Of a stretch of DNA of 33,798 nucleotides, positions 2,081-16,503 are shown piece after piece. Made by a program: the position numbers and the translations under genes. The notes below the pieces were generated by a model. The model had not been told where the DNA came from, ran no database searches, and saw only the letters and a list, made by a program, of their open reading frames with translations. Each line of letters starts with the position of its first letter. Position 1 is the first letter of the stretch. The stretch comes from an uncultured Ruminococcus sp. (GTDB lineage: Bacteria; Bacillota; Clostridia; Oscillospirales; Acutalibacteraceae): NCBI GenBank assembly GCA_902794395.1, contig CADBHB010000019.1:1-33798 (forward strand). The letters are read 5' to 3'.

Positions 2081-4939
2081 TTACTCCTCGGCTTTTGCCT
2101 TGAACGCCTTGTCCTTAGCGAAATCGGGAATGAGCTTCTTTTTGAATACATAGGTGAACACGCAGAACGCCGCGAATACCAGCGCGCAGACTATCGACAG
2201 GCACAGTCCCGGCACAAAGCCGTTGGGCTTGTATTTTAACGTTATGCTGTGGCTGCCCTTGGTTATCGGAAACGCCACCAGAGCATCGCCCACGGGGGTT
2301 ATGTCGGTCTTTTTGCCGTCAACATACACCGTCCAGCCCTTTTCGTAGGGCACCGAGGTGAGGAACAAGCCGTCGCGCTGAGCGTCTATCTTGCCCTCAA
2401 GCTTGGCTCCGTTGTTGAAGTAGGTGGGCGTCATGGAATTATCAAGCAGCATTTGATACGCCTGCTCAAACACGGGCTGGTTGAGCGCCACCAAATACAC
2501 CTTGGCGCTGCCGCTCGCGTTTGTTTTCAGCGCCGCCGACACCGCGATGTCGTCGCCCTTGTTGAAGTAGCCCATGGCGGTTATAGCCTTGTTGTTGGCG
2601 TTGTACTCCTTGGGAAGCTGGTCTTTGCCGAGGCAGAGGTGGATTGACGAGCTGTTTGAAACGTCCGCGTACAACAGATACAAGCCGTTTGCGGGGGCGT
2701 TGTAGTGCCACTTGAGATTGGAGGTCTGAGAGCTGTCCTTGGTTGAGAAGCCGTAGCTGTTGTCGCCGTTTTTGGTAACGGTGGCGTTGGTGTGCTCCTC
2801 GTAGGTCACCTCGGCGGGGATATACACCGGCTCGTTAATGCCGGTAGCAAGGCGGAAAAACTCGCCCTGGGTGTCAAAGGGATTATAGGAGTTTTCCTTT
2901 GGGTTGGGCTGCCAGTTGAGCAGCGCATTGTTGACTATCATTCCGTTGGGCACAAAGTGGGTATTCTCGAGCAGATGCACACTGCCGGAGGTCGCTACCT
3001 CCTTGAGGTCGTAGGTATTAGCCACGTTGTCCTGCCGCGAGATGAGATACTTTACATTCATAAAGAGATTTGTGACGGGCGAGCCCTCGTAGTAGATATA
3101 GCGGTTGCCTGCCTGCCAGCCCGAAAGACCGAAGTTTGAAAAGAAGATGGTCATTTTTTCGTTAGCCATCGAGTTGAACATCGTCAGACCGCGGTAGTGG
3201 TTCAAAGCGCCGTCGTTCAGGGTGCTGGTGCGTATCATCTCGGCGCGCCACAAGCCCTTGTTGTCGTCCTCGCGGTGGTTCATCTCTGACACTATCGCGT
3301 CTACATAATGCTCGCGGTCGGGATAAACGGGGGTATTTTGAGCGCTGACCATGTCGGTCACGCCGGTCACATTTACGCCGAAATAGGCGGTGTAGCCGCT
3401 CTGCGCCACCACTATTACCACCAGCGACGCCGCGACCGCCTGCCGCGGGATAACGCGCTTGGAATACAGCAGCATAAGCACTATCAGCACACCGAACAGC
3501 ACCGCCATAGCCGCCAGCGTGGGGTCTACCCAGCCCATGCGGTTGACGCGGTTGTTATGCTCGTTCGTGCCCACCTTTGAGGCAAACATGTTAAACACGC
3601 CCTGGTCGTAGGGCCCGTCGCCGTCGGGGCTTTTGGTGCCGGTGTAGTTGAACTCAAGCGACCACATGAAAAAGCTGAGCAAGCCCGCGATTATGACGTT
3701 CATCAGGTTTATCTTGCGTATGTTCATATAGGCGCGGAAGCCCATGACTATGATAACAAAGCTGACCAAATAGGAGAAGCGGTAGTATATCATGTTCGGG
3801 AAGTGGAAGCCGTGCCAGATATAGTCGAGCTGACGGATGGCAAAGCTGACAAAGAGGAATATCAGCATGCCCATGCTTACCAGCTTTTCCCTGAGCTTTA
3901 TCTCCTTGGTAGTAAGGCTGAGCAGCGCGAAGAACAGAGGCACCGCTCCGCAGCATACGTTGGGCAAGCCGTCGATCTCTTTGTTGTTGGGCGCCGAGAA
4001 GTTGATAAGGTTGCCCGCCATGCTCTTCAGCAACTTAAGCAAGCCCAGAAAATCGTTGCTGCCGCTGATGTTGTGGGTGTTCAGCTCAAACTTCTGCGGG
4101 AATTTTAAGTCGCTGGCGTGGGTGTTTTGCAGCGCCATAAACGTAGGCAGCAGGAAAAACGCGGCCATTCCCACGCCCAGCAGGGTAAACACAGCGAATT
4201 TGAGGAAGTTTACCGCGAGCACCCGCGGGTTTTGCCAGCGGATGATTGAGTACGCGATAAAAATAAGCAGAATGAAAATGCAGGAGAAATACGCGATATA
4301 GTAATTGGTGACCAGCGACAGTGCCAGCATTACCGTATACAGTCGGAACCTGTTTTCGGTGAGCAGCTTTACCGCGCCCAGCGCCACCAGCGGGGTGATA
4401 GCCACGGTGTCCAGCCAGATGGTGTTCCAGTAATAGCCCATAAAGAAGGCGCAGAACGAGAAGCAGGTGCCGAAGATCAGCAGCGATATGTCCTCGCGCT
4501 GAAAAACGCTCTTGAGAAAATACGCCATAAAGCTGCCCGCGAGAGCTATCTTCACTGCGACCGAGATCATAAGGAACTCGCGCAGATAATCGGGCGACAC
4601 AAAGAACGACAAAAAGTTCATGGGGCTTGCCAAGTAGTAGGACATCAGCGAGAAGTAATTTACTCCTCCGCCTACCGACCATCCCCAAAACAGCCCTTCG
4701 CCGTTTTGCAGCCTGCCCTGAAAATCCTCGAGGAACGGGTAGTACTGGTGCCACATGTCTGTCACCAATATCTGCTTTGTAGCCTTGCCCAGCGGGGCGA
4801 CGTCCATCATACCGAAGGCGGTCAGCATAAGCGCCAGCGGCACCAGGAACGCAAGCCACACAAATATATTGCGTTTGCCAAACGCCCGCAGTTTTTCGGG
4901 GATAGTTTCCGGCGCGCGTAAGGTTTTTATCATCGACAT
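2081..4939 (-). CDS. YfhO-family polytopic membrane protein, GT-C transferase
   Basis: 952 residues from the ATG at 4939 (GGAGG ten bases upstream). An upstream in-frame GTG at 4963 would place that ribosome site inside the gene and is rejected. The N-terminal half is strongly hydrophobic with many membrane segments (first at ~25-44). The first external loop holds TDMWHQYYPF with Asp61, the acidic loop residue typical of GT-C enzymes. A long soluble extracytoplasmic part follows, and one membrane helix near 910-932 precedes a basic tail. YfhO of Bacillus subtilis moves a sugar from undecaprenyl phosphate to lipoteichoic acid. The divergent neighbours supply the matching lipid-sugar synthase and flippase candidates, so the same role, on an unknown acceptor, is likely. 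Confidence 0.85.
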   Translation of the reverse strand: MSMIKTLRAPETIPEKLRAFGKRNIFVWLAFLVPLALMLTAFGMMDVAPLGKATKQILVTDMWHQYYPFLEDFQGRLQNGEGLFWGWSVGGGVNYFSLMSYYLASPMNFLSFFVSPDYLREFLMISVAVKIALAGSFMAYFLKSVFQREDISLLIFGTCFSFCAFFMGYYWNTIWLDTVAITPLVALGAVKLLTENRFRLYTVMLALSLVTNYYIAYFSCIFILLIFIAYSIIRWQNPRVLAVNFLKFAVFTLLGVGMAAFFLLPTFMALQNTHASDLKFPQKFELNTHNISGSNDFLGLLKLLKSMAGNLINFSAPNNKEIDGLPNVCCGAVPLFFALLSLTTKEIKLREKLVSMGMLIFLFVSFAIRQLDYIWHGFHFPNMIYYRFSYLVSFVIIVMGFRAYMNIRKINLMNVIIAGLLSFFMWSLEFNYTGTKSPDGDGPYDQGVFNMFASKVGTNEHNNRVNRMGWVDPTLAAMAVLFGVLIVLMLLYSKRVIPRQAVAASLVVIVVAQSGYTAYFGVNVTGVTDMVSAQNTPVYPDREHYVDAIVSEMNHREDDNKGLWRAEMIRTSTLNDGALNHYRGLTMFNSMANEKMTIFFSNFGLSGWQAGNRYIYYEGSPVTNLFMNVKYLISRQDNVANTYDLKEVATSGSVHLLENTHFVPNGMIVNNALLNWQPNPKENSYNPFDTQGEFFRLATGINEPVYIPAEVTYEEHTNATVTKNGDNSYGFSTKDSSQTSNLKWHYNAPANGLYLLYADVSNSSSIHLCLGKDQLPKEYNANNKAITAMGYFNKGDDIAVSAALKTNASGSAKVYLVALNQPVFEQAYQMLLDNSMTPTYFNNGAKLEGKIDAQRDGLFLTSVPYEKGWTVYVDGKKTDITPVGDALVAFPITKGSHSITLKYKPNGFVPGLCLSIVCALVFAAFCVFTYVFKKKLIPDFAKDKAFKAKAEE

Positions 4940-4979
4940 ATAAGGTAAACCTCCGTTGATCACATATTTATACTTTTAT

Positions 4980-5008
4980 ATTGTAACACGTTTTTGCGCA
5001 AAGGTAAA
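4980..5008 (-). promoter_or_regulatory. Promoter of the YfhO-family gene
   Basis: On the minus strand TTTACC (5003-5008), a 17-base spacer and TACAAT (4980-4985) with an extended TG one base before it. Confidence 0.6.
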
Positions 5009-5047
5009 CAAAAACTTTGCGGGTTTTCAAAGAATTTTTTAAAACAG

Positions 5048-5077
5048 TTGGACATTTGCCGCCGACTTTGGTATAAT
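5048..5077 (+). promoter_or_regulatory. Promoter of the GT2-Cache-GtrA unit
   Basis: TTGGAC (5048-5053), an 18-base spacer and TATAAT (5072-5077). It is back to back with the YfhO promoter, with about 40 bases between the two -35 boxes, so one regulator could serve both. Confidence 0.65.
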
Positions 5078-5093
5078 GTATTCGGTGATAATA

Positions 5094-6050
5094 ATGAAAA
5101 CGATAGATTTGGTCGTACCCTGCTACAACGAGGAGGAGGGGCTTGAGCATTTTGTGCTGGAGACCAACAAGGTTATAGCCTCGCTTCCCTCCTGCCGCTT
5201 CCGCTTTATCCTGGTAAACGACGGCAGCCGCGACAAGACCTTCTTGGTGATGAAGCAGCTGGCGCGCCGCTTTGACAATATAAAATACATCTCTTTTTCC
5301 CGAAATTTCGGCAAGGAAGCCGCCATGTACGCGGGACTGAGGCACACCACCGCCGACTATGTGGTGGTGATGGACGCCGACCTGCAGCACCCGCCCGAGG
5401 TCTTTCCCCAAATGCTGGAGGCTATGGAGGAGGGCTTTGACTGCTGCGCCACCAAGCGCGACGAGCGCGAAGGCGAAAGCTTTTTCCGCGGGATATTCTC
5501 GAAGCTGTTTTTCAGGCTGAGCAACCGCCTGACCGACGTAAAAAACCCCTACGGCGCCATGGACTACCGCATGATGACACGCCAGATGGTAGACGCTATT
5601 TTGGAGCTGAGCGAGGTGCAGCGCTTTTCAAAGGGCATATTCTCATGGGTAGGCTTTGACACCAAGTGGATATCCTTCTCCACGGTAGACCGTCAGCACG
5701 GCAAAACCAGCTGGAAATTCTCCTCTCTGTTCAAATACGCCATCGACGGCATCACCTGCTTTTCGGTAGCGCCGCTGCGCTTCACCGCGGTAATGGGCGC
5801 CGTTATCTTCTTTATATCGCTGATCTACATTTTGATAACGCTGATACAAACGCTGTTTTTCGGCATAACCACGCCCGGTTATGTCACCACCCTCTGCGCC
5901 GTGCTGTTTTTGGGCGGCATAACGGAAATGTCCATAGGCATCCTGGGCGAGTACATCGGCAGGATATACATGGAAGCAAAAGACAGACCCATATACATCA
6001 CCAAATTCTCTAATTTTGAGGAGGATAACACAAAAGAAAGCGAGGAATGA
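5094..6050 (+). CDS. GT2 polyprenyl-phosphate glycosyltransferase (CsbB/GtrB type)
   Basis: 318 residues. It should transfer a sugar from a nucleotide donor to undecaprenyl phosphate on the cytoplasmic face. The GT-A domain shows VPCYNEE at residues 8-14, VNDGS at 41-45 and the metal-binding DAD at 94-96 followed by LQHPPE, the usual DPM1/GtrB pattern. Two membrane helices lie in the C-terminal quarter, the second leading into GEYIGRIYMEAKDRP, typical of CsbB, GtrB and ArnC. The start at 5094 is chosen because an ATG at 5076 lies within the -10 box; GGTGA precedes 5094. It heads a unit with the Cache protein (3 bases later) and GtrA protein, divergent from YfhO. Confidence 0.88.
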   Translation: MKTIDLVVPCYNEEEGLEHFVLETNKVIASLPSCRFRFILVNDGSRDKTFLVMKQLARRFDNIKYISFSRNFGKEAAMYAGLRHTTADYVVVMDADLQHPPEVFPQMLEAMEEGFDCCATKRDEREGESFFRGIFSKLFFRLSNRLTDVKNPYGAMDYRMMTRQMVDAILELSEVQRFSKGIFSWVGFDTKWISFSTVDRQHGKTSWKFSSLFKYAIDGITCFSVAPLRFTAVMGAVIFFISLIYILITLIQTLFFGITTPGYVTTLCAVLFLGGITEMSIGILGEYIGRIYMEAKDRPIYITKFSNFEEDNTKESEE

Positions 6051-6053
6051 TTT

Positions 6054-6941
6054 ATGAGCAAGGCCCCTGAAAAAACCGTAGGCAGAACCTTTGCCGCCAT
6101 ACTGCTGGCAATACTTATCGCTGTAAGCTGCGCCGTAAGCTTTATCGCGGTGATACCGCTCGGCAACAAACACGCCGCTTTGAATCAGGCGTCCGACAAC
6201 GCGAGGCGTCAGCTGCAGCGCTATGAGGTGAACGCCGCGCGTATGCAGTCAAAATTTGCCGACTCAATGTTCAGCAAGGCTATCTCAGCCTCTCTCGCCT
6301 ACACGGGCGAAGGCGCGGATCTGAAAAAGATAGCGGACACCCTGCTGCTGAAGAGCGTTAACATCACCGACGAAAACGGCGTTATCACCGCCGCCTATCC
6401 CGAAGACCTGCTCGGCAAGCGGCTCAAGGACATGGACGACACCATAGCCCTCAACCCGATCGCCAAAAACATAGTGCTCAAAAAGGTGGGCAAGATCATC
6501 CCCCAGGGCAACGGCAAATATCTGGTGTATGTAGGCGCGGCGCGCGTTGACCTGCCGGAAGGCAAAACCGGCGCGGTAGTTGTGACCGCCGTTACCGACA
6601 CCTATGAGGAGGCATACGGCGCGAACGTAGCCGACGAATGCGGCGACAACGTGATTTTGGAGAAAAACGGCGAAACCTTCAGCAACAGCTTTGCCGAGGC
6701 GAAGGACAAGACCATCTCCTCTCTTGCCGGAAGCAACAACGGCAAGCCCTTCAAGCTGACTCTCGGCGGCAAGACCTACGACGCCAAGGTCATCAACGAA
6801 GGCGAGTTCAAGGCACTGGTCGCGGCGGAAGCCAAGGACAACAGCCTTTTGACCTTCCTTATCATCGCCGCTGCCGACCTTATCCTTCTGGGCGTGGGCT
6901 GTGTGCTGCTGTTTGTTTTAAGGAAACCTAAGAATGAGTAA
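6054..6941 (+). CDS. Two-helix membrane protein with external Cache-like domain
   Basis: 295 residues, family not recognised with certainty. A membrane helix at about residues 12-35 and another near 268-290 enclose roughly 230 external residues. The piece DENGVITAAYPEDLLGKRL has the look of the Cache (extracellular PAS-like) ligand-binding fold of sensor proteins. Unlike a histidine kinase or chemoreceptor it ends a few residues after the second helix (RKPKNE), so there is no signalling output. It lies 3 bases after the GT2 gene and overlaps the GtrA gene by 8 bases, so its job is probably tied to the lipid-sugar pathway, for instance sensing or scaffolding. That role is inference. Confidence 0.65.
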   Translation: MSKAPEKTVGRTFAAILLAILIAVSCAVSFIAVIPLGNKHAALNQASDNARRQLQRYEVNAARMQSKFADSMFSKAISASLAYTGEGADLKKIADTLLLKSVNITDENGVITAAYPEDLLGKRLKDMDDTIALNPIAKNIVLKKVGKIIPQGNGKYLVYVGAARVDLPEGKTGAVVVTAVTDTYEEAYGANVADECGDNVILEKNGETFSNSFAEAKDKTISSLAGSNNGKPFKLTLGGKTYDAKVINEGEFKALVAAEAKDNSLLTFLIIAAADLILLGVGCVLLFVLRKPKNE

Positions 6942-7383
6942 ACTAAAGTCCTTTTTTGACATCAAATTTTTAAAATTTCTTCTGGTCGGCGTAATCAACA
7001 CCGCCGTAGGAGAAGGCATAGTTCTGCTGCTCCTGCACCTAGCGGGCTGGAAACAGTTTTCCTGGGGCGCGGGCGCGGCGGCGTTTGTCGGCACCGTTAT
7101 CGGCAGCGTAGTCAGCTACTTTTTGAATAAGTACTTCACATTTAAAAATAAGGAAAAGGGCGTAAAGCCCATGCTGCGCTTCACTCTGAACATCGGCGTT
7201 TGTCTGCTTATCCGCGTAGTCACGGCAACCATCGTCAGCAACCTTTGCAGGGCGGCGGGACTTTCGCTTTTCGGCATGAGCGTCAACACCTTCGCGGCAA
7301 ACGCAAGCTGGGCGGTAGGCGCCTGCGTATTCGTAGGCTGCAACTATATAGGACAGCGCTTCTTCGCCTTTAAAGAAAAGTAG
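6934..7383 (+). CDS. GtrA-family membrane protein, lipid-sugar flippase candidate
   Basis: 149 residues with four predicted membrane helices. The start (KFLKFLLVGVINTAVG) and the motif SYFLNKYFTFKNK after the second helix are hallmarks of the GtrA family, as is the closing YIGQRFFAFK. GtrA/GtcA proteins are thought to move undecaprenyl-phosphate sugars across the membrane. The gene overlaps the Cache gene by 8 bases and completes the CsbB-GtcA-YfhO set with the divergent gene at 2081-4939. A terminator follows at 7422. Confidence 0.88.
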   Translation: MSKLKSFFDIKFLKFLLVGVINTAVGEGIVLLLLHLAGWKQFSWGAGAAAFVGTVIGSVVSYFLNKYFTFKNKEKGVKPMLRFTLNIGVCLLIRVVTATIVSNLCRAAGLSLFGMSVNTFAANASWAVGACVFVGCNYIGQRFFAFKEK

Positions 7384-7421
7384 ATTGTTAGTTTTTTGAT
7401 TTTTGGAATTTATAACGTCAA

Positions 7422-7456
7422 AACAGGCACGCCGAAGCGTGCCTGTTGCTTTTTTA
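7422..7456 (+). terminator. Terminator between convergent units
   Basis: The stem AACAGGCACGC (7422-7432), loop CGAA and GCGTGCCTGTT (7437-7447) are followed by GCTTTTTT. On the other strand the tail is TTTTGACG, so it may also end the leftward rfbB operon, less efficiently. Confidence 0.85.
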
Positions 7457-7470
7457 TGCGGTTGTCGGGA

Positions 7471-8520
7471 TCAAACCGAATACATCTTGTCGTAGTAGTT
7501 CATGTACTCGCCCGAGGTAATCTTGTTCATCCAAGCCTCGTTGGCGAGGTACCACTCGATGGTTTCGGCTATGCCCTGCTCAAAGGTGTAGGCGGGCGCC
7601 CAGCCGAGCTGAGTGGTGATCTTGGTGTTGTCGATGGCGTAGCGGCGGTCGTGACCGGGACGGTCCTTTACATACTCGATAAGGTCCTCGCTCTTGCCCA
7701 GCGTCTTGATGATGAGCTTGACGATCTCGATGTTAGCCTTCTCGTTGTTGCCGCCGATGTTGTACACCTCGCCGATAACGCCCTTGTGCAGGACGGTGTC
7801 GATGGCGTTGCAGTGGTCGGAAACATGCAGCCAGTCGCGGATCTGCATGCCGTCGCCGTAAACGGGCAGCGCCTTGCCCGACTTGCAGTTGTTTATCATA
7901 AGCGGAATGAGCTTTTCGGGGAACTGGTAGGGTCCGTAGTTGTTGGAGCAGCGGGTGATGTTGACGGGCATACCGAAGGTTTCATGGTAAGCGCGGGTGA
8001 CCATGTCGGCGCTCGCCTTTGAAGCGGAGTAGGGGCTGTTGGGAGAGAGCGGAGTGGTTTCCATGAACATGCCCGTCTTGCCCAGCGCGCCGTACACCTC
8101 GTCGGTGGACACCTGCAGATACTTCACGCCTTCCCTGTACTCGCGGGAGTACTTGTCGTCGGGGTCTACCTTCCAAAAGCGCTTTGCCACATCGAGGAGG
8201 GTCTGGGTGCCGATGACGTTGGTTGTGAGGAATATCTCAGGCTCGGTGATAGAGCGGTCAACATGGCTCTCGGCGGCGAAGTTCACCACCGTGTCGATGT
8301 CGTATTTTTCAAATATCTCGGTCAGCGCGGCTCTGTCGCGTATATCCGCCTTGATAAAGGTGTAGCGCGGGTCGTTTTCGATGTCGGTGAGGTTATCGAG
8401 GTTGCCCGCGTAGGTGAGCGCGTCGATGTTGATGATGTTGTAGTCGTGGCTTTTAAGCATATGGTGGACAAAGTTTGAGCCGATGAAGCCCGCGCCGCCC
8501 GTAACAAGAATGTTTTTCAT
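7471..8520 (-). CDS. rfbB: dTDP-glucose 4,6-dehydratase
   Basis: 349 residues, normal for the family. It converts dTDP-glucose to dTDP-4-keto-6-deoxyglucose using bound NAD+. The NAD-binding motif TGGAGFIG is at residues 7-14, the catalytic T-D-E at 139-141 (STDEVYG) and the YxxxK pair at Tyr164 and Lys168 (YSASK); RCSNNYGPYQFPEKLIP also fits. AAAGGAG precedes the ATG. It is the last gene of the nine-gene leftward unit, 18 bases after rfbA. No rfbC or rfbD homologue is present, and wecE is upstream, so the product most likely feeds the amino sugar pathway rather than rhamnose. Confidence 0.97.
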   Translation of the reverse strand: MKNILVTGGAGFIGSNFVHHMLKSHDYNIINIDALTYAGNLDNLTDIENDPRYTFIKADIRDRAALTEIFEKYDIDTVVNFAAESHVDRSITEPEIFLTTNVIGTQTLLDVAKRFWKVDPDDKYSREYREGVKYLQVSTDEVYGALGKTGMFMETTPLSPNSPYSASKASADMVTRAYHETFGMPVNITRCSNNYGPYQFPEKLIPLMINNCKSGKALPVYGDGMQIRDWLHVSDHCNAIDTVLHKGVIGEVYNIGGNNEKANIEIVKLIIKTLGKSEDLIEYVKDRPGHDRRYAIDNTKITTQLGWAPAYTFEQGIAETIEWYLANEAWMNKITSGEYMNYYDKMYSV

Positions 8521-8538
8521 AGTGTTTCTCCTTTACGA

Positions 8539-9411
8539 TTATGAATGTGCGTCCGCGAGGCTGATGAGATACTGACCGTACTCGGTCATTTTCAGCTCCT
8601 CGCCCAGCTTTCTGAGCTGCTCGATGGTGATATATCCCTTGCGCCAAGCGATCTCCTCTATGCAGCTTATATACAGACCCTGCATCGACTGTATGGTCTG
8701 CACATACTCAGCCGCCTTCAGCAGACCCGCGGGCGTGCCGGTATCAAGCCACGCCATGCCTCTGCCCAGCAGCATTACATTTAGCTCGCCGTTTTCGAGA
8801 TAGAGGCTGTTTACGGAGGAAATCTCAAGCTCGCCGCGCGCGGAGGGCTTGATGCTCTTTGAGTACTCGATGACCTTGTTGTCGTAGAAATAAAGTCCGG
8901 GCACCGCGTAGTTCGACTTGGGCTTCTGAGGCTTTTCCTCAATGGAGATAACCTTGCCGTCCTTGTCAAACTCGACCACGCCGAAGTCCCTGGGATTCAT
9001 AACGGGATAGCCGAACACGGTCGCGCCCTTGAGGTTGTTCCTGACCTTGAGCAGCATATTGGGGAAATTCTGTCCGTAAAACACATTGTCGCCGAGGATG
9101 AGGCAAACGCTGTCGTCGCCGATGAAGTCCTCGCCCAAGATGAACGCCTGAGCCAGTCCGTTGGGCTGCTCCTGCACGGCGTACTCGATGGAAATGCCCA
9201 GCCGCGAACCGTCGCCGAGCAGCTCCCTGTAGATGGGTGTGTCCTCGGGAGTGGAGATCACCAAAATCTCATTGATCTCCGCCAGCATCAAAATGGACAA
9301 CGGATAGTAGATAAGGGGCTTGTCATACACGGGCAACAGCTGCTTTGACACGGTCTTGGTCATGGGATACAGCCTTGTGCCCTTTCCGCCCGCCAAAATA
9401 ATACCTTTCAT
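8539..9411 (-). CDS. rfbA: Glucose-1-phosphate thymidylyltransferase
   Basis: 290 residues. It makes dTDP-glucose from dTTP and glucose 1-phosphate, the first step of dTDP-sugar synthesis. The nucleotide-binding GGKGTRLYP at residues 8-16 is followed by [17 protein letters not shown], both characteristic of RmlA. The central [13 protein letters not shown] and the C-terminal [13 protein letters not shown] are also standard. GGAG lies eight bases before the ATG. It is 12 bases after the preceding membrane-protein gene and 18 before rfbB, in the same operon. Confidence 0.97.
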
Positions 9412-9423
9412 AAAATCATCTCC

Positions 9424-10878
9424 TTAATATAGCTTGATCGGCGCCTTGAAGAACATCCACAAAGTCAGCGCGATAAAGGGAACCAACAGCACGGCGCGCG
9501 CCCACAGCAGCACGCGGCAGTTTTTATCTCCGCCCGCAAGCGGCTTGTCCCTGCGGTCAGGGTGGTTGAACCAGAGCAGCAGCACGGCGCAAATGACCGC
9601 GACTCCCGCGAAAAGCGGCTGAAACGCTATCATCAGCTCGCCTTTGACCTGCATAAAGGTTTCGATGCTGGTGTAGGGTCCCTCGTTGCCCTCGATAACT
9701 CTGTAGCCGAAGAACCGCTGCACCACGGCGTAGTTTATTGTTTTTATGCGGAACAGGCTTGAGCTGTAGCGCACCGCCAGCTTTGCCAGCACGCCCGCCG
9801 CCATAACGGTGTCGATAATGCCGTTGTAAAAGAACATCCTGCGATTGAGCGTTATTGTGATATACAGGAAGGGCACCAGCACCGCCAAGCGGTAGAAGGT
9901 GACCGGCGACAGCACAAGGTTAGCCATATAGGTCAGGGTGACGGTGTAAACGGCAAATTCGCCGAAATAGCGGTCGCCCCCTAAGCTGTCGTGGGAAAAG
10001 TCCCGGGTGTAGCAGTAAAAGTATATCAGCACCAGCGCTATGGCAAAGAAGGAAATTCCGCCGTAAGCGGTGGTGATGTTCGCGGGGAACATATCCTTTA
10101 TCATCATTTGGGAGGGTCCCTCGCTGATGCACTCCTTGTACATCGGAGCGCCCATGAACATCAGCTTTTGCAGCACCATGCCCGAAACGCTGAGCAGCAC
10201 CTTGAGCAGCACCTTTATCAGATCCTTCTCGTACAGCAGCAGCAGCGCCAAAAACGGCAGCAGGAAAAACGGCTTGATCGCTATTGCTGCGGCAGACCAC
10301 GCCAAAAACGACTTCTCTTTGCCGCGCAGCAGCTGATAAACGCCTATCACGGACGGGGTCATCATCAAAATATCATTTTGTCCCGCATAGCAGGTGGCGA
10401 GCAGCAAAAACGACGAGCTCGCCGAAAGGAACATAGCCCACACAGCCATGGCATTGTCACCGGTGAGCAGCAGCACCATCTTTTTGGCGTAGTGCATGAT
10501 GACCAGCGACAGCGCCACCGTAAACAGCTTTGAGTACATCAGCATGAAGGGCGAGGTGGCGATGGGAACGCCGCCAAAGCGCTGCACCGCCCAAATGGGC
10601 AGGTTCCACACCGACCACGGCAGCACCGAAAACAGCTCGCTGCCCATTTTGGCATGCTGGATGTGGTGGACATTTTGCGCGGTATATTCATATAAGTGGC
10701 GGATGTTGCTGTCAAGCGTCACATCCCACACATTGGTAGACCATATGGTCAGGCTTCGCATATCGACATAGGCGGAGGTCAGTATAACAAATACCGCCGT
10801 CACCGCCGCGAGCACCCACTCAAACACGAGCACCCTGTCGCTGCGATAACTGTTCAAAAAGGCTTGCTTTAGCTTCAT
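9424..10878 (-). CDS. Polytopic membrane protein, GT-C-like, second of tandem pair
   Basis: 484 residues with about ten or more hydrophobic segments. It is a clear paralogue of the adjacent 485-residue protein. Shared blocks include MGSELFSVLPWSVWNLP near residues 80-96, a GQNDILMM-type segment, KPFFLLPFLA, PANI-TAYGGISFFAIALVLI and the C-terminal SFQPLFAGV-like region. The layout (one N-terminal helix, a long first external loop, then many helices) suits a GT-C glycosyltransferase using a lipid-phosphate sugar, but no family is recognised and the catalytic residue is not assigned. Its place between the flippase-like genes and rfbA supports a role in transferring the dideoxy amino sugar. GGAGG precedes the ATG by five bases. 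Confidence 0.75.
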   Translation of the reverse strand: MKLKQAFLNSYRSDRVLVFEWVLAAVTAVFVILTSAYVDMRSLTIWSTNVWDVTLDSNIRHLYEYTAQNVHHIQHAKMGSELFSVLPWSVWNLPIWAVQRFGGVPIATSPFMLMYSKLFTVALSLVIMHYAKKMVLLLTGDNAMAVWAMFLSASSSFLLLATCYAGQNDILMMTPSVIGVYQLLRGKEKSFLAWSAAAIAIKPFFLLPFLALLLLYEKDLIKVLLKVLLSVSGMVLQKLMFMGAPMYKECISEGPSQMMIKDMFPANITTAYGGISFFAIALVLIYFYCYTRDFSHDSLGGDRYFGEFAVYTVTLTYMANLVLSPVTFYRLAVLVPFLYITITLNRRMFFYNGIIDTVMAAGVLAKLAVRYSSSLFRIKTINYAVVQRFFGYRVIEGNEGPYTSIETFMQVKGELMIAFQPLFAGVAVICAVLLLWFNHPDRRDKPLAGGDKNCRVLLWARAVLLVPFIALTLWMFFKAPIKLY

Positions 10879-10891
10879 GGCGCCCTCCGGA

Positions 10892-12349
10892 TCAGACGTA
10901 ATATCTTCCGTTTGCCTTAGTGAACAGGTACACGATCAGCAGAGCGAAGGGAACTATGATTAGCGTACGCGCCCAAACCAGCACGCGGTAATGACGGTAG
11001 CCGTAATATTTGAGCTTTACCTGTTTGTCGGGTCGGTTGAGCGCCATCAGCATACCGGCGCAAACGATGGTCACACCCGCGAAAAGCGGCTGGAACGACT
11101 CCATCAGCCCGACCTTATGACCCAAAAAGCGGTCGAGGTTGGCGGCGTAGCCCGCCTTTTTCTCATCGACCTTATAGCCTAACACACGCGCCGTAAGCGA
11201 GTTGTTTACGAACATCACGTTGAACATGATAGAACCGCGCAGAATCATCTTTATAACAAACGCGCCCTGCATGGCTATGTCTATAACCATGTTGTAGAAG
11301 CCCATCTCGGTATTCTGCACCAGCACGATATAGAGGAAGGGCAGCATGACGCCGGCGCGGTAGAACGAGAACGGCGACAGCGACACATAACAGACGTAGG
11401 TAAGCGCTACGATGTACACAGCGTGACGCGCCGCGTTTTGAGTGTCGGTAAGGTAGGCGTCTCTGTCGAAGTCGCGCGAATAAGAGTAAATGAAGATGAG
11501 CACCAGCGCTATGGCGAAAAACGAGATACCGCCGTAAGCCGTGTTGATGTTCGCGGGGAACATCTCCTTCAGCATATCATCGGCGGGACCCGAGTGCATC
11601 GACTCGTAATATCCCGGTGCGCCGCGGAAAAACAGCTTTTGCGCCACCAGACCCGAAACGCCGATAAAGGTGTCGGCAAGGATGTAGAGCACCTTCTTTT
11701 CGGTAAGCACCAGCACAGCCAAAAACGGCAGCAGGAAAAACGGCTTGATGGCTATTGCCAGCACCGACCACGCGATAAACGCGGCGTGCTTGCCACGCAA
11801 CATGCAGTAGATGCCTATGACGGAGGCGCATATCATCAAAATATCGTTTTGTCCCGAGTAGCAGACAGTTAGATAGAGGTAAACCGAGCTTGCGGTAAGG
11901 TACATAGCCCATACGCTCTTTGCCTTGTCGCCTGTTACTATCATGGTTATCTTCTTGGTGTATATCAGCACCACAACGGACACCAGCACCAAAAACAGCT
12001 TGGAATACGCCAGCATCAAAGCCGAGCCGCCTATTTTAGCGCCCGTAGCCCGCTGAATGAAGAACAAAGGCAGGTTCCACACCGACCACGGCAGCACCGA
12101 AAACAGCTCGCTGCCCATGTGGGCGTGGTGGACCTTATACACGTTGCCGGCGGTGTAGGCGTACAGACTGCGTATGTCGCCGTTGGCTATGCTGTGCCAC
12201 ACGTTTACCGACCACTGAGTCAGGCTTTGCAGGTCCCATGTGCTTGAGGTGACAAACACAAACACGCCTGTCACTATCGCAAGCAGCCACTCGGCGAGAT
12301 ACACCTTGTCGCTGCGGTACATCGTTAAAAACTTGTCCTTAAAACTCAT
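10892..12349 (-). CDS. Polytopic membrane protein, GT-C-like, first of tandem pair
   Basis: 485 residues, paralogue of the next gene downstream (13 bases away), with matching landmarks throughout: YRSDKV near residue 12, MGSELFSVLPWSVWNLP near 80-96, CYSGQNDILMICASVIGIY, IAIKPFFLLPFLAVL, PANINTAYGGISFFAIALVLI and SFQPLFAGV. The two are diverged enough that the duplication is old, so both are probably kept for different jobs, such as two acceptors or the two halves of a heterodimer. A GT-C-type external transferase is the best inference. An oligosaccharide polymerase or transporter is possible. GGAG lies six bases before the ATG. Confidence 0.75.
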   Translation of the reverse strand: MSFKDKFLTMYRSDKVYLAEWLLAIVTGVFVFVTSSTWDLQSLTQWSVNVWHSIANGDIRSLYAYTAGNVYKVHHAHMGSELFSVLPWSVWNLPLFFIQRATGAKIGGSALMLAYSKLFLVLVSVVVLIYTKKITMIVTGDKAKSVWAMYLTASSVYLYLTVCYSGQNDILMICASVIGIYCMLRGKHAAFIAWSVLAIAIKPFFLLPFLAVLVLTEKKVLYILADTFIGVSGLVAQKLFFRGAPGYYESMHSGPADDMLKEMFPANINTAYGGISFFAIALVLIFIYSYSRDFDRDAYLTDTQNAARHAVYIVALTYVCYVSLSPFSFYRAGVMLPFLYIVLVQNTEMGFYNMVIDIAMQGAFVIKMILRGSIMFNVMFVNNSLTARVLGYKVDEKKAGYAANLDRFLGHKVGLMESFQPLFAGVTIVCAGMLMALNRPDKQVKLKYYGYRHYRVLVWARTLIIVPFALLIVYLFTKANGRYYV

Positions 12350-12370
12350 ACTGTCTCCTAATCAGCTCCG

Positions 12371-12739
12371 TCATCCGACGGGAATAAATCCGCCCAGCGC
12401 GAATAGCGCTATACCCGCCATCAGCACCAGGATGCCGACGGTTTTCTTTACGGTAAATTTCTCTTTTAGAAAAATATATCCCAGCACCGCCACAAATATA
12501 TAGCCCGCGCTTTCCAAGATCGGACCCATGGATACATCCACATATCGGTAGCAGTACATAGTTATCATCATCGAGCAGAAGAACATTCCGTAGGCGATGA
12601 TAACCAAGGGGTTCAAATACTCTCCCAGCTTGCTGTCATAGGTTTTGTCGGCGCTCTTTTTAAGCAGTATCTGCGAAACGGAGGAGATGAACACCGAGCC
12701 GATGAACACGCAGGAAAAAATCAAAGCCATCTTACTCAT
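12371..12739 (-). CDS. Small EamA/SMR-like protein, flippase subunit B
   Basis: 122 residues with four predicted membrane helices; a half-size EamA/SMR-type protein. Typical features are SQILLKKSADK after helix 1, a Tyr-rich second helix and MGPILESAGYIFVAVLGYIFLKEKFTVKKTVGILVLMAGI, the standard helix 3-4 hairpin of this superfamily. It overlaps the preceding homologous small gene by 8 bases, so the two are made together and probably form a heterodimer, as ArnE and ArnF do when moving undecaprenyl-phosphate aminoarabinose. A second Met at residue 4 is an alternative start. The ArnC-like gene just upstream makes the flippase role more likely than drug export. Confidence 0.8.
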   Translation of the reverse strand: MSKMALIFSCVFIGSVFISSVSQILLKKSADKTYDSKLGEYLNPLVIIAYGMFFCSMMITMYCYRYVDVSMGPILESAGYIFVAVLGYIFLKEKFTVKKTVGILVLMAGIALFALGGFIPVG

Positions 12740-13094
12740 TGTTCGACACCACCATTACCACGCCCGCGAAAACCACCAGCGAGCCGACTATCTTATACCA
12801 TGTTATGGCGTCGCCGAAAACCAGCGCGCCCCACAGCATGCCCCACGCTATGCAAATAGCCTTGTTGGTAAAGGCGACGGTAAGCGGCAGCTTTTTGAGC
12901 ACCTGCTGCCACAGCAGGGCGTAAATGCCCAAAAACAACACCGCCAAGCCCGCGAACAGCAGAAAGTAAAACGAGAACATCGGCTGCTCAAACGCTTTTT
13001 TCATAAACACGCCCACAAACGAGTAGAGCAGCAGGATGAAGTGCAGCACCGCGTAGGTTTTTATATCGAATTTGCGCTTGTTTTTATTTTCCAT
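12732..13094 (-). CDS. Small EamA/SMR-like protein, flippase subunit A
   Basis: 120 residues from the ATG at 13094. The frame is open further upstream, but that part lies within the GT2 gene and GAGG sits nine bases before 13094. Four membrane helices are predicted. The helix 3-4 region reads AFTNKAICIAWGMLWGALVFGDAITWYKIVGSLVVFAGVVMVV, cut here by family pattern rather than exact domain limits. The gene overlaps the GT2 gene by 11 bases and the second small gene by 8 bases, a tightly coupled trio. I infer that the two small proteins form a heterodimeric ArnE/ArnF-like flippase for the GT2 product. Confidence 0.8.
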   Translation of the reverse strand: MENKNKRKFDIKTYAVLHFILLLYSFVGVFMKKAFEQPMFSFYFLLFAGLAVLFLGIYALLWQQVLKKLPLTVAFTNKAICIAWGMLWGALVFGDAITWYKIVGSLVVFAGVVMVVSNNE

Positions 13095-14031
13095 CCTTTT
13101 GATCCTCAAAGCCCACTCTGTCGCGGATGACAAACTGCGGCGAGCGGTTGATGCTAAGGTAGATACGTCCCACATACTCGCCCACCATGCCGAGCATGAG
13201 CATCAACATACCGCCGATGAACAGCATGACCGCCATTGTAGAGCTCCAGCCCAGCAGAGATTCGGGCACAACGATCTTGTGGATTATTACATACACCCCG
13301 AACAGGAATCCCGCCGCGGCGGTGATGAAGCCGATGAAAGTAGCGAAGCGCAGCGGCTTGACCGAAAACGAGGTGAAGCCGTTTATCCACAGCAGCAGCA
13401 GCTTTCTCAGGCTGTAGCCCGAGGTGCCCTCGACGCGCTCGCGGTGGTCGATCTCCACGTTGCACACCTTTTTGGTGGCGCGCAGCAGCAGACCGCTCAT
13501 GTAGGGATAGGGGTTCTCGTAGCGGAGCACCTCGTCCACAACGTAGCGCTTGCAGGCGAAGTAGCTCATTATCTTCAGATCCTTGGGCTTGCTTAGCAGC
13601 CAGCGCGCCATAAGGTCGTTAACCTTGCTGCCCATGTTGCGGAAGCCCGAGTGTTGTTTGTTTTTATACTCGGCGAACACCAGATCGAACTTGTCCAGCT
13701 TGTCTATCAGGCGGAACATCTCGCAGGCGGGCGTCTGTCCGTCGTCGTCCAGACACACCACTATGTCGCCGGTCAGGTAGGTAAAGCCCGCCATGATAGC
13801 GGAATGTTGACCGAAGTTGCGCGACAGGTCCAAGCCCCTTACACGGGAATGGGTGCGCGCCAGCTCCTTGATGGTCTGCATTACGTTGTCGGGCGAATTG
13901 TCGTTGACCAAAATTATCTCCCAGTCGTAGCCGCCGTGAGCGGTCACGGTGGATTCTATCTCATCCACTACCGAGCCGATGGTGTGCTCGGAACGGTAGC
14001 AGGGAATAACAAAGGATATTTTTTCCATCAT
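13084..14031 (-). CDS. GT2 polyprenyl-phosphate glycosyltransferase (ArnC-like)
   Basis: 315 residues starting at 14031 (ATGA overlap with the acetyltransferase stop; a second ATG follows at 14028). It should attach the operon's dTDP-sugar to undecaprenyl phosphate. The GT-A domain shows VIPCYRSE at residues 8-15, LVNDNSPDN at 41-49 and an acidic DDD at 95-97 (CLDDDGQTP) in place of the commoner DAD. SRNFGQHSAIMAG is typical of the family. Two C-terminal membrane helices end in GEYVGRIYLSINRSPQFVI. It differs clearly from the GT2 protein at 5094-6050, so this is a separate system. Three of its neighbours overlap each other, pointing to one assembly line. Confidence 0.88.
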   Translation of the reverse strand: MMEKISFVIPCYRSEHTIGSVVDEIESTVTAHGGYDWEIILVNDNSPDNVMQTIKELARTHSRVRGLDLSRNFGQHSAIMAGFTYLTGDIVVCLDDDGQTPACEMFRLIDKLDKFDLVFAEYKNKQHSGFRNMGSKVNDLMARWLLSKPKDLKIMSYFACKRYVVDEVLRYENPYPYMSGLLLRATKKVCNVEIDHRERVEGTSGYSLRKLLLLWINGFTSFSVKPLRFATFIGFITAAAGFLFGVYVIIHKIVVPESLLGWSSTMAVMLFIGGMLMLMLGMVGEYVGRIYLSINRSPQFVIRDRVGFEDQKDGK

Positions 14032-14561
14032 TCCGTCCCCTTCTTCCATTCTTTACGGAGTATTCCCATAAATACCATGTCATATCCTTTGCCGTCGATA
14101 AGCACGTCCTCGCGGAACCTGCCCTCGTACACAAAGCCCGCGTTTTCGTAGCTTTTTATGGCGCGGGTATTGTCGGCAAAGACGCGCAGGAACACACGGT
14201 TGAGCCCCAGCGTGCCGAAGGCGTAGTCGAGCGCCAGCTTTGCCGCCGCCGAGCCTATGCCCTTGCCGCGGCAGGAATCCTCGCCGATGAAGATGCCGTA
14301 CTCGCACTTTTTGTTTTCCATGTCGATGTCGCGCAGGTAGACGGAGCCCACTTCCTCGTGCGCCTCCTCGTCAACTATCATAAACTGCGCCACATCGCCC
14401 GTCTGCACGCGGTTACGGAACCAGTTGAGGTGCGCCTCGCGGGTAAGGGGCGTGCGGTAGATAAAGTGCTCTACCACCGAAGGGGCGTTGCGCCATTTTA
14501 CGATTTTATCGGTATCCGCCTCGGTGATCGGGCGGATGGAAACAGAATGATCCATAAACAT
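14028..14561 (-). CDS. GNAT N-acetyltransferase, likely acting on the dTDP-amino sugar
   Basis: 177 residues, RimJ/RimL-like GNAT fold. The acetyl-CoA loop is seen in GEDSCRGKGIGSAAAKLALDYAF (residues ~94 onward; R/Q-x-x-G-x-G/A form), followed by LNRVFLRVFADNTRAIKSYENAGF. The ATG at 14561 shares one base with the wecE stop (TAATG); an ATG two codons later has better ribosome-site spacing. In enterobacteria WecD acetylates dTDP-Fuc4N made by WecE. This protein is shorter and of a different GNAT subgroup, closer in style to PseH-type sugar acetylases, so the match in role rests on position between wecE and the GT2 gene. Confidence 0.82.
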   Translation of the reverse strand: MFMDHSVSIRPITEADTDKIVKWRNAPSVVEHFIYRTPLTREAHLNWFRNRVQTGDVAQFMIVDEEAHEEVGSVYLRDIDMENKKCEYGIFIGEDSCRGKGIGSAAAKLALDYAFGTLGLNRVFLRVFADNTRAIKSYENAGFVYEGRFREDVLIDGKGYDMVFMGILRKEWKKGTE

Positions 14562-15691
14562 TAACCCTTATAGAACTTGATAACGGTGTCTATCACCTTT
14601 TGGATGTCCTTGTCGCTGAGTCCGTAGTACATCGGCAGACGCAGCAGACGGTTAGCCTCGGCGGTGGTGTACTTGTCCTCGCCGTGGAAGCGTCCGAACT
14701 TTTGACCTGCGGGAGCGCTGTGCAGCGGGATGTAGTGGAACACCGCGAGAATGTCGTTTTGCTTGAGGAAGGAGATCAGTGCCGTCCTCTCCTCGAGGTC
14801 CTTTGCCTTTAGGTAGAACATGTGCGCGTTGTGTTTGCACTCGGCGGGGATGATCGGGCGCTCGACAAAGCCTTCCTTTTCCAGCTCCTCGAACGCGTCG
14901 TAGTACTTCTGCCAGGACGCCAGGCGGTCGTTGTTTATCTTATCCGCCGCCTGCAGCTGCGCCCAAAGATAGGCGGCGTTCATATCGCTGGGCAGGTAGG
15001 ACGAGCCGTAGTTTACCCAGGTGTACTTGTCTATCTGACCGCGCAGGAACACGCTGCGGTTGGTGCCCTTTTCGCGGAGTATTTCGGCTTCCTCTATCTT
15101 TGAGGGGTCCTTTATCAGAATAGCGCCGCCCTCGCCCATGCTGTAGTTTTTGGTTTCGTGGAAGGAATAGCAGCCGAAGTCGCCGATAGCGCCCAGCGCC
15201 TTTCCTTTGTATTCGGACATCACTGCCTGCGCGGCGTCCTCTACCACATATAGATTGTGGCGCTTGGCTATATCGAGGATGGTGTCCATTTCACAGCCAA
15301 CGCCCGCGTAGTGCACGGGGACGATAGCCTTGGTCTTGTCGGTGATGGCGTCCTCGATCTTGCTCTCGTCGATGTTCATGGTGTCGGGGCGGATGTCCAC
15401 GAACACCAGCTTGGCTCCGCGCAGTGCGAAGGCGTCGGCAGTCGAGCAAAACGTGAACGACGGCAGGATGACCTCGTCGCCGGGCTTGATGTCCAGCAGC
15501 AGCGCCGCCATTTCAAGGGCGTCGGTGCAAGAGGTGGTCAGGAGCGCCTTGGCAGAGCCGGTCTTTTTTTCCAGCCACTGATGGCACTCCTTGGTAAAGG
15601 GGCCGTCGCCGCATATCTTCTGGTTTTTGATAGCCTCCATGATGTATTCGGTCTCTGTTCCCAAAAACGGAGGTACGTTAAACGGAATCAT
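14561..15691 (-). CDS. wecE: dTDP-4-amino-4,6-dideoxygalactose transaminase
   Basis: 376 residues from the ATG at 15691, the same length as Escherichia coli WecE. It transfers an amino group from glutamate to dTDP-4-keto-6-deoxyglucose, giving dTDP-Fuc4N, with PLP as cofactor. Blocks that match my recollection of WecE include SCTDALEMAALLLDIKPGDE, VDIRPDTMNIDESKIEDAIT, VPVHYAGVGCEMDTI and FHYIPLHSAPAGQKFGRFHG. The PLP lysine is Lys181 in HETKNY. AAGGAAGG lies seven to eight bases before this ATG; a longer frame reaching 15727 has no ribosome site. It is first in the operon. Confidence 0.93.
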   Translation of the reverse strand: MIPFNVPPFLGTETEYIMEAIKNQKICGDGPFTKECHQWLEKKTGSAKALLTTSCTDALEMAALLLDIKPGDEVILPSFTFCSTADAFALRGAKLVFVDIRPDTMNIDESKIEDAITDKTKAIVPVHYAGVGCEMDTILDIAKRHNLYVVEDAAQAVMSEYKGKALGAIGDFGCYSFHETKNYSMGEGGAILIKDPSKIEEAEILREKGTNRSVFLRGQIDKYTWVNYGSSYLPSDMNAAYLWAQLQAADKINNDRLASWQKYYDAFEELEKEGFVERPIIPAECKHNAHMFYLKAKDLEERTALISFLKQNDILAVFHYIPLHSAPAGQKFGRFHGEDKYTTAEANRLLRLPMYYGLSDKDIQKVIDTVIKFYKG

Positions 15692-15764
15692 TAAAAATCC
15701 TTCCTTTCCATGCCAAACGCTAAACACGTTCCATATAGACTGATATTACTCCATACATAATAGT

Positions 15765-15793
15765 ATTATATATGAAAATTCAGGAAACATCAA
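15765..15793 (-). promoter_or_regulatory. Promoter of the dideoxy amino sugar operon
   Basis: On the minus strand TTGATG (15788-15793), a 17-base spacer and TATAAT (15765-15770). Transcription would start near 15758, leaving a leader of about 65 bases before wecE. Confidence 0.75.
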
Positions 15794-15906
15794 GTGTTAA
15801 GAGATTTTCTTCTATAGAAATTCCCATTATTTTGTCACTTTTTTTTGGAGAGAATGTCGTGCGAAGCAACACAGCGACGCTCACTTTCTTTCCGAGAGCG
15901 TTTTTC

Positions 15907-15936
15907 CAAAAAGAAAAGCGCCCCCAAAGGAGCGCT
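15907..15936 (-). terminator. Terminator of the acidic-tail membrane protein gene
   Basis: On the minus strand the stem AGCGCTCC-TTTG-GGGGCGCT (15936 to 15917, one G-U pair) is followed by TTTCTTTTTGG. It lies 15 bases after the stop at 15952. Confidence 0.8.
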
Positions 15937-15951
15937 GTCCGACAAAATGAT

Positions 15952-16503
15952 TTAATATGTACTTTCCGAGCCCTGAAGCACTGCTTCCTCTTCCTCTGCC
16001 TCGGCGTTCTCCTCCGCGTCAAGCAGGTCCTCCTCAACGCCGCCCTCAAGCAGAGCGTCGTCATCCTCGTGGTCCTCCGCGTCCTCTGCCTCCTCAGCCA
16101 GCTCGAAGCCGCTGAACACGGTGTAGGGGATGCCGTAACCGAGCGAAACAGCCGCCAGCGTGGTGATAACGCTGAGCTGCGCGGTGTTTTTATCCGCGGC
16201 TATCGCGTCATGGAAGGGCATGAAGGCAGCCAGCGAAATAAGGATGATAAGCGCCGCGGGCAGCACCATAACCAGAAGAGTCACGGGTGAAAAGCGCATT
16301 ACCGCCTTGCCGTCGCCCACTCTGGTAGCGTAGAACAGCAGCAGACCGAACAGCGCGTACACACCTATGCTTATTAGCTGAGCAGCCATAAAGCCGACAG
16401 AATTGGTGAAATTTGAGAAAAAGTTGGCGCAGACGGTATACGCCAAAATCAAAAACGCGGAAAAGAAAAGATTTATATGTTCTTTTTTATCAAGCTTTCT
16501 CAT
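15952..16503 (-). CDS. Four-helix membrane protein with highly acidic tail
   Basis: 183 residues, not recognised. Four hydrophobic segments lie within about residues 10-130. From about residue 133 the chain is almost entirely Glu, Asp and Ala with a few Leu (for example AEEAEDAEDHEDDDALLE), ending GSESTY. A GGGAGG ribosome site precedes the ATG at 16503. The tail is probably cytoplasmic and disordered; it might bind cations or basic proteins, but nothing in the sequence decides this. The gene is 115 bases after prmA and has its own terminator. A weak promoter (TTGCTT, 17 bases, TAAAGT on the minus strand) lies in that gap. Confidence 0.75.
   Translation of the reverse strand: MRKLDKKEHINLFFSAFLILAYTVCANFFSNFTNSVGFMAAQLISIGVYALFGLLLFYATRVGDGKAVMRFSPVTLLVMVLPAALIILISLAAFMPFHDAIAADKNTAQLSVITTLAAVSLGYGIPYTVFSGFELAEEAEDAEDHEDDDALLEGGVEEDLLDAEENAEAEEEEAVLQGSESTY

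Follow-up and report, generated by a model that had tools for sequence, protein, structure and literature searches.

A stretch of 33,798 nucleotides from an uncultured Ruminococcus sp. (contig CADBHB010000019.1, hereafter the window) carries a nine-gene operon that quite probably makes a rare amino sugar, links it to a lipid, moves it outward by means of a two-part flippase and couples it to the cell surface through two related enzymes. This reading draws on the enzyme families, on predicted structures that give GTC1 a class C glycosyltransferase (GT-C) fold and EamA1 a small multidrug resistance (SMR) fold, on opposite topology signals in the two flippase halves, on gene order and on co-occurrence across genomes. 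Acetyl as the final N-cap, undecaprenyl phosphate (Und-P) as the carrier, two transferase specificities and the acceptor are the parts of it that we infer. The sugar would be 4-amino-4,6-dideoxygalactose (Fuc4N), made as a deoxythymidine diphosphate (dTDP) derivative, and its acetylated form Fuc4NAc. All nine open reading frames of the initial annotation are present, head to tail on the minus strand from 15691 to 7471:

14561..15691, minus strand: wecE, dTDP-4-amino-4,6-dideoxygalactose transaminase (TIGR02379, 654.9 bits; cut-off 434.85)
14028..14561, minus strand: GNAT, probable dTDP-Fuc4N 4-N-acetyltransferase, PseH-like (TIGR03585 PseH, 94.9 bits)
13084..14031, minus strand: glycosyltransferase of family 2 (GT2), probable Und-P Fuc4NAc synthase (ArnC and PgfS models, solved homologues)
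12732..13094, minus strand: EamA1, putative SMR half-flippase, N-terminus inside by charge
12371..12739, minus strand: EamA2, putative SMR half-flippase (PF00892, 39.5 bits; cut-off 28.2), N-terminus outside by charge (Lys/Arg bias -6)
10892..12349, minus strand: GTC1, predicted GT-C-fold transferase of clade 1, whose model matches GT-C transferases
9424..10878, minus strand: GTC2, paralogue of GTC1 from clade 2, 51% identical to it
8539..9411, minus strand: rfbA/rmlA, glucose-1-phosphate thymidylyltransferase (TIGR01207, 468.7 bits; cut-off 360.65)
7471..8520, minus strand: rfbB/rmlB, dTDP-glucose 4,6-dehydratase (TIGR01181, 508 bits; cut-off 365.1)

The spacing first described, with four overlaps and no gap above 21 bases, was borne out by measurement: from wecE to rfbB the successive junctions are -1, -4, -11, -8, +21, +13, +12 and +18 bases, the gaps thus ranging from 12 to 21 bases.

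Predicted donor sugar, flippase and external transferases

The initial annotation had RfbA, RfbB and WecE produce dTDP-Fuc4N, and the scores of the three proteins, each above the cut-off of its family model, point to this product. The solved structures closest to WecE, 4piw (584.6 bits), which we take to be the E. coli enzyme, and 6blg (569.4 bits), are both dTDP-4-amino-4,6-dideoxygalactose transaminases, with QdtB following at 166.7 bits. No second rfbA copy was found in the genome, in which three other matches are weak (26 to 41.5 bits). The N-cap is probably acetyl, added by an enzyme that resembles PseH rather than WecD in sequence: the GNAT exceeds the PseH cut-off of 93.1 narrowly, by 1.8 bits, and as the sole protein tested with the WecD model it reaches 18.5 bits against a cut-off of 195.1. 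Since PseH acetylates another 4-amino-4,6-dideoxy nucleotide sugar, acetylation of dTDP-Fuc4N would be the natural reading. WecF (PF07429) was not found in the genome, which is 99.3% complete; among 14 control genomes only E. coli was positive.

For the next three genes, an ArnC-like GT2 and a pair of half-size EamA/SMR proteins had been proposed. The families stood up; the Arn equivalog cut-offs were not reached. The GT2 is by homology a putative membrane-anchored GT-A/GT2 polyprenyl-phosphate sugar synthase, and matches the solved structures of ArnC (9hwj, 154 bits, residues 3-304) and sll0501 (125 bits, residues 4-309), the latter presumably of GtrB type. It remains below the equivalog cut-offs of ArnC (NF007986, 172 bits vs 529) and PgfS (153.4 bits vs 500). 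The predicted structure of EamA1 shows an SMR fold, its partner has the opposite Arg/Lys bias, and the candidate flippase is not of GtrA type. This bias, counted with membrane borders set by hand, is positive in 24/24 EamA1 and negative in 25/25 EamA2 proteins of the adjacent gene pairs. Moreover, the first transmembrane helix (TM1) lacks Asp and Glu in all 12 EamA1 rows and in 11 of 12 EamA2 rows, the exception having a Glu in the first position of the TM1 range. The pair thereby combines the two marks of paired lipid-type SMR proteins, opposite bias and replacement of the central TM1 Glu, a residue that is often replaced in lipid SMRs and present in proton-coupled SMR exporters, according to the available part of a review (PMC9574504). 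Similarity to the small Arn proteins is low (EamA1 with ArnE 23.9 bits, EamA2 with ArnF 23.6 bits), EamA2 scoring 25.8 bits with EbrA; the weak ArnE match recurs in 12/12 EamA1 rows.

A polymerase or transporter family for the two large proteins was the outcome against which the initial annotation had staked its proposal. No profile of any family in Pfam or NCBIfam exceeded its cut-off and the GTC1 model matches GT-C transferases instead, so these identities were rejected. The fold is predicted for GTC1 from its structural model and extended to GTC2 only through their 51% identity; Asp39 and other invariant columns are kept in both. NCBIfam gives no match to either protein at E<=0.1, a 34-row GT-C profile found no match among the sequences of solved structures even at E 10, and a viral fold library yielded none at E<=0.001.

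Co-occurrence, gene order and possibly exchangeable parts

Counts in 394 genomes of the order make the flippase subfamily the tightest partner of WecE, followed by the GT2, with the GT-C family the loosest. The WecE, GT-C, EamA1 and GT2 counts are taken to cover one genome set (same size and handles), and relatedness was handled by genus counts only. WecE (E<=1e-120) occurs in 17 genomes, the EamA1 subfamily in 14 and the GT2 (E<=1e-60) in 17. WecE is present in 14/14 EamA1 genomes (p 3e-23; 9/9 by genus) and in 14/17 GT2 genomes (p 2e-20; 8/10 by genus). As the EamA1 profile was built from 12 of 24 rows, taken from operons nearly all holding wecE, it is the EamA1 subfamily, and not all SMR pairs, that is confined to WecE genomes. 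The GT-C profile hits six genomes, two of them with WecE (p 0.02; 0.19 without the window's own genome). It gives 712 and 725 bits in the window, 196 and 183 bits for two GT-C pieces in G196, which has WecE, and 44 to 190 bits in the four WecE-less genomes. The partial G196 sequences, which represent one or two genes at a contig break, were excluded from alignments. An equation of the GT-C family with Fuc4N was dropped, as four of the six GT-C-positive genomes of this search lack WecE. Counted from loci, with WecE at E<=1e-100 and 30 of 31 loci used (L085 shares a genome with L086), WecE is present in 28/30 genomes that carry a GTC relative (27 of them over cut-off), and in 5/7 of those with distant relatives; it was not found in GTC-bearing G591 (L083) and G592 (L084). 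Nor was wecE found in three sampled genomes of the window's own genus.

Loci in which the GT2 and flippase genes serve unrelated sugars and wecE is missing had been named in advance as counter-evidence; the counts speak against such a pattern, apart from one metagenome-assembled genome (MAG) without WecE. Two observations bear on the proposed pathway. This MAG (G591, Bacilli, ~1.0 Mb) holds GTC, GT2, EamA1 and EamA2 in a row at 9989-13008 of L083 and no WecE was found in it: either the MAG is incomplete or the same machinery works on another sugar. In addition, the rhamnose-type neighbours of distant GT-C relatives slightly reduce our confidence. In G331 (L106) a 624-aa relative lies near a CsbB-like GT2, with dTDP-4-dehydrorhamnose epimerase, rfbA and rfbB some 4-10 kb on, and in G496 (L108) a 692-aa relative is followed by one gene and then by rfbA, rfbB, RmlD-type and RmlC-type genes; no WecE was found in either genome at E<=1e-120. 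Because of these dTDP-sugar genes nearby, members of the wider GT-C family probably act on further sugars as well. Elsewhere, a 633-aa relative adjoins a CsbB-like GT2 (G509) and a 477-aa relative stands alone (G487; GT87 24.7 bits, just under the cut-off of 25). The L083 row is followed by a reading frame of 2565 aa.

The GTC1 search gave six matches among 200 genomes of the window's family, and a contig scan with a four-row GT-C alignment reduced 71 pattern hits to 31 confirmed loci. Seventeen of these loci bear RUG isolate names, which we take to mean rumen uncultured genomes, and one names cattle abomasum; the host bacterium is probably from the rumen. At several of the loci discussed here gene functions were read by eye from the first residues unless a Pfam match is given. 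The operon is conserved beyond chance: the order wecE-GNAT-GT2-EamA1-EamA2-GTC is kept in 20 of 23 close relatives (L056-L078), with rfbA next in 16/23 and rfbA-rfbB in 12/23. The exceptions to the full order are L066 and L069, which end at contig ends, and L076, which consists of GTC-rfbA-rfbB only. A 183-aa gene upstream of the operon in the window precedes it in 11/23 close relatives, so its site is seemingly fixed in much of the group. One Oscillospiraceae genome (G011; L017/L018, L085/L086) has two GTC genes on separate contigs, one in a wecE-GT2-GTC arrangement and the other on its own, close to two very long genes that by eye resemble RNA polymerase subunits.

The two paralogous polytopic proteins initially noted are real in the window and not a general feature: 19 of the 20 relatives with full gene order have a single GT-C gene. 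In the GT-C tree, GTC1 falls in a clade of 15 rows (support 100/99) and GTC2 in one of six (100/98). Single-copy operons carry clade 1, clade 2 or a third GT-C type, and both clades co-occur, within this set, only in the window and L056. These two are mutual nearest relatives in their GT-C genes (79 and 81% identical, compared with 46-64% to all other 22 loci). A core tree of five proteins (rows with at least four of the five; 23 rows in one run, 22 in the other) places the window with L057 and L060, and L056 elsewhere. Forcing the window and L056 together, a pair chosen after the tree was seen, costs 129 log-likelihood units (approximately unbiased test, p-AU 1.8e-8). The window's WecE is likewise 79.0% identical to that of L056 and 91.5% to that of L057. 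Because the GT-C genes are nearest each other and the core proteins group apart, the simplest reading of these sequences is that a two-gene GT-C cassette moved between operon backbones.

The N-cap also appears to vary. Around wecE in the 19 loci covered by one ATP-grasp query (L056-L078 lie outside this set), three have a GNAT, 13 an ATP-grasp ligase, none both and three neither. The ligase takes the place of the GNAT in other clostridia (L041-L043, L045, L048-L050, L052-L055, L079, L080); five of the 13 matches are weak (62-137 bits), and two that were checked with Pfam gave 82.5 and 96.6 bits with PF13535. The amine may thus carry a different cap in other clostridia. It is tempting to propose, tentatively and at somewhat less than even confidence, that Clostridia share a chassis reserved for decorating the surface with Und-P-linked Fuc4N derivatives (WecE, ArnC-like GT2, dedicated split SMR flippase) and fitted with two exchangeable slots. 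One would be the N-cap, for which a GNAT would supply acetyl and an ATP-grasp ligase an amino acid or a different acyl group; the other would be the outer GT-C cassette, of clade 1, clade 2, both, or YfhO and other types. If so, a cassette swap between operon backbones would alter the site or manner of sugar attachment, much as gtr genes convert serotypes, and pressure from phages or the host may lie behind it.

Proposed pathway, rival explanations and known systems

In the pathway that we favour, RfbA and RfbB would form dTDP-4-keto-6-deoxyglucose in the cytoplasm, WecE would convert it to dTDP-Fuc4N and the GNAT would acetylate the 4-amine to give dTDP-Fuc4NAc. The GT2 would transfer the sugar to Und-P, EamA1 and EamA2, paired in antiparallel as an SMR-class heterodimer, would flip Und-P-Fuc4NAc, and GTC1 and GTC2 would pass Fuc4NAc to an acceptor on the outer surface, probably at two different sites or in two linkages, since other operons manage with one GT-C. 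Our guess for the acceptor would be a wall polymer that LCP enzymes attach, in preference to type I lipoteichoic acid. The genome encodes three LCP proteins, and no sulfatase-domain (LtaS-type) gene was found in it, which makes type I lipoteichoic acid unlikely. No obvious wall-polymer cluster was seen by eye, without profiles, around the three LCP genes. A third GT2, of CsbB type, adjoins AMP-binding and MBOAT genes (L022, own genome, C4 near 65 kb), presumably a pair like that of D-alanylation (dlt) sets. The LCP proteins, the missing LtaS and this third GT2 point to a protein or an LCP-attached wall polymer more than to type I lipoteichoic acid, and decide nothing.

A protein acceptor reached by the same pathway, comparable to Pgf glycosylation in Streptococcus mutans, is possible if rather unlikely. 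With the PgfS model the GT2 reaches 153.4 bits, below the cut-off of 500, and in Pgf two related membrane proteins influence the glycosylation of adhesins to different degrees (PMC5856776). Against it stand the single GT-C of most full-order relatives and the lack of any NCBIfam match at E<=0.1 for either GT-C here. Secreted dockerin-type proteins would be candidates: at 29645-32740 on the minus strand the window encodes a secreted-looking protein of 1031 aa that has leucine-rich repeats of BspA type (PF13306, 122.5 bits), by eye also repeated units bearing cysteines, and at its C-terminus a type I dockerin (PF00404, 31.2 bits; cut-off 22.9), which marks the host as a dockerin bearer. L067 and L073 likewise have dockerin proteins downstream of the operon. 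However, no observation connects the operon with any one protein. That GTC1 and GTC2 form one heterodimeric enzyme, with an acceptor-binding and a catalytic subunit, seems to us unlikely. Their genes are adjacent, 13 bases apart, the pair is common to the window and L056, and a review raises, as speculation, that small GT-C enzymes may work with a second protein that binds the acceptor (PMC8035078); yet Asp39 and the remaining invariant columns are conserved in each of the two, and most full-order relatives have one GT-C.

Alternatively, cytoplasmic transferases could build Fuc4NAc into a polysaccharide exported by Wzx/Wzy or an ABC transporter, while the GT2, SMR pair and GT-C enzymes handle another sugar. 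In one genome (L047/G398) WecE does lie in a capsule-like cluster, two reports on Clostridium butyricum predict Fuc4N in its flagellin (PMC13317340) and its capsule (PMC12342839), and wider GT-C relatives neighbour other dTDP-sugar genes. We consider this improbable, given that Pfam and NCBIfam find no further glycosyltransferase in the operon, that the genome lacks WecF, and that the GT2 and SMR pair track WecE among the 394 genomes. Least credible of all is a drug or metabolite exporter placed in the operon by chance. It would accord with the SMR-class fold and the similar scores of EamA2 with EbrA and ArnF, but every sampled EamA1-subfamily genome has WecE, and an acidic TM1 residue, central in proton-coupled exporters, is missing from all but one of the rows.

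Surface attachment of a lipid-linked sugar, the reading we prefer, had been described as an Arn-like assembly line in a Gram-positive. The operon does seem to work like Arn, which puts aminoarabinose on lipid A in Gram-negatives, in its 4-amino sugar, ArnC-like GT2, paired SMR proteins and GT-C-fold transferase. Membership in Arn did not hold: all five cut-offs tested were missed, WecE scoring 198.1 bits with ArnB (cut-off 631), RfbB 24.7 with ArnA (777), and EamA1 and EamA2 falling short of 92 for ArnE and 99 for ArnF, as did the GT2 for ArnC. The donor is a dTDP-hexose here and a UDP-pentose in Arn, and a GNAT stands in for the formylation and deformylation steps of the Arn pathway. The sequence matches of the GT2 and the predicted fold of GTC1 support a better class, that of three-component (multi-component transmembrane) glycosylation systems such as CsbB-GtcA-YfhO, GtlA-GtcA-GtlB and GacI-GacK-GacL, in which a polyprenyl-phosphate GT2, a membrane flippase and an external GT-C cooperate. 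Table 1 of a review assigns Gram-positive members galactose, glucose, N-acetylglucosamine or unknown sugars and GtrA-type, Wzx-type or unknown flippases (PMC8035078); as far as this source goes, they differ from the operon in its own predicted dTDP-amino sugar, its putative split SMR flippase and a GT-C type without a Pfam or NCBIfam family.

The Fuc4NAc branch of enterobacterial common antigen shares RfbA, RfbB and WecE as makers of dTDP-Fuc4N, whereas here a PseH-like GNAT replaces WecD, WecF is absent and the sugar seemingly sits on a monophosphate lipid, not in a repeat unit. The Pgf operon (PgfS, PgfM1, PgfE, PgfM2) likewise combines a membrane-bound GT-A with two related polytopic proteins but has, in the part of the report available, an epimerase, no amino-sugar genes and adhesin acceptors (PMC5856776), and the PgfS cut-off fails here. 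The pentofuranose systems of Citrobacter youngae O1/O2 pair a small four-helix flippase, likened to EmrE and ArnE, with a GT-C enzyme; as far as that source covers them, they use a phosphoribosyl pyrophosphate (PRPP) donor, one flippase gene modelled as a dimer and a Gram-negative O antigen (PMC11127046). The general scheme is therefore known, while for this predicted combination of sugar, flippase and enzyme family in Gram-positives we found no description: among the open-licence papers listed, mostly judged from listings, none was recognisable as an account of wecE, an SMR pair and a GT-C together, and the literature on rumen glycosylation, judged from a listing, gave no lead. If the pathway is correct, a 4-amino-4,6-dideoxy sugar for which donor pathway, flippase and GT-C type are all its own would join the hexoses of the reviewed systems in the external glycosylation of Gram-positive surfaces, and Bacillota would possess a paired lipid-type SMR flippase, a class that the available part of a review puts mainly in Proteobacteria (PMC9574504). 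Being compact and self-contained, the operons would also lend themselves to asking if Und-P-sugars are flipped by split SMR pairs and how a GT-C enzyme comes by its acceptor, a question they suit because natural operons differ in just the GT-C gene.

Candidate promoter and terminator, and neighbouring genes

Two candidate regulatory sites frame the operon:

15765..15793, minus strand: sigma-70-type promoter site TTGATG-17-TATAAT, 10/12 consensus matches
7422..7447, listed for the plus strand: terminator-like stem-loop of 11 pairs (7 G-C) with a loop of 4

The promoter lies exactly where it had been claimed. It is the top of three sites in 7000-16000; because shuffled sequence averages 5.7 such sites, their number is no evidence, and the argument is its position ~70 bases before wecE. 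The stem-loop falls just past rfbB, between the convergent rfbB and gtrA, in a region with 13 terminator-like sites compared with 9.7 in shuffles. Beyond it, 2081-7383 holds a second, ordinary three-component set:

2081..4963, minus strand: YfhO (PF09586, 494.1 bits, whole profile)
5076..6050, plus strand: CsbB-like GT2 (PF00535, 113 bits), 27% identical to the operon GT2 and named by its position beside YfhO and GtrA
6934..7383, plus strand: GtrA/GtcA flippase (PF04138, 68.7 bits; cut-off 26.1)

The CsbB-like GT2, the protein at 6054-6941 and GtrA converge with the operon, and YfhO is divergent. The 6054-6941 protein has no Pfam match at E<=0.01 and is 40.9% identical to its counterpart in L060, the only one of the 23 loci with the same neighbours, as far as the flanks reach. 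Fast evolution of the GT-C genes as a sign of selection was considered and dropped, since the neighbouring YfhO likewise diverges faster than its CsbB (65.8 and 91.6% identity between the window and L060).

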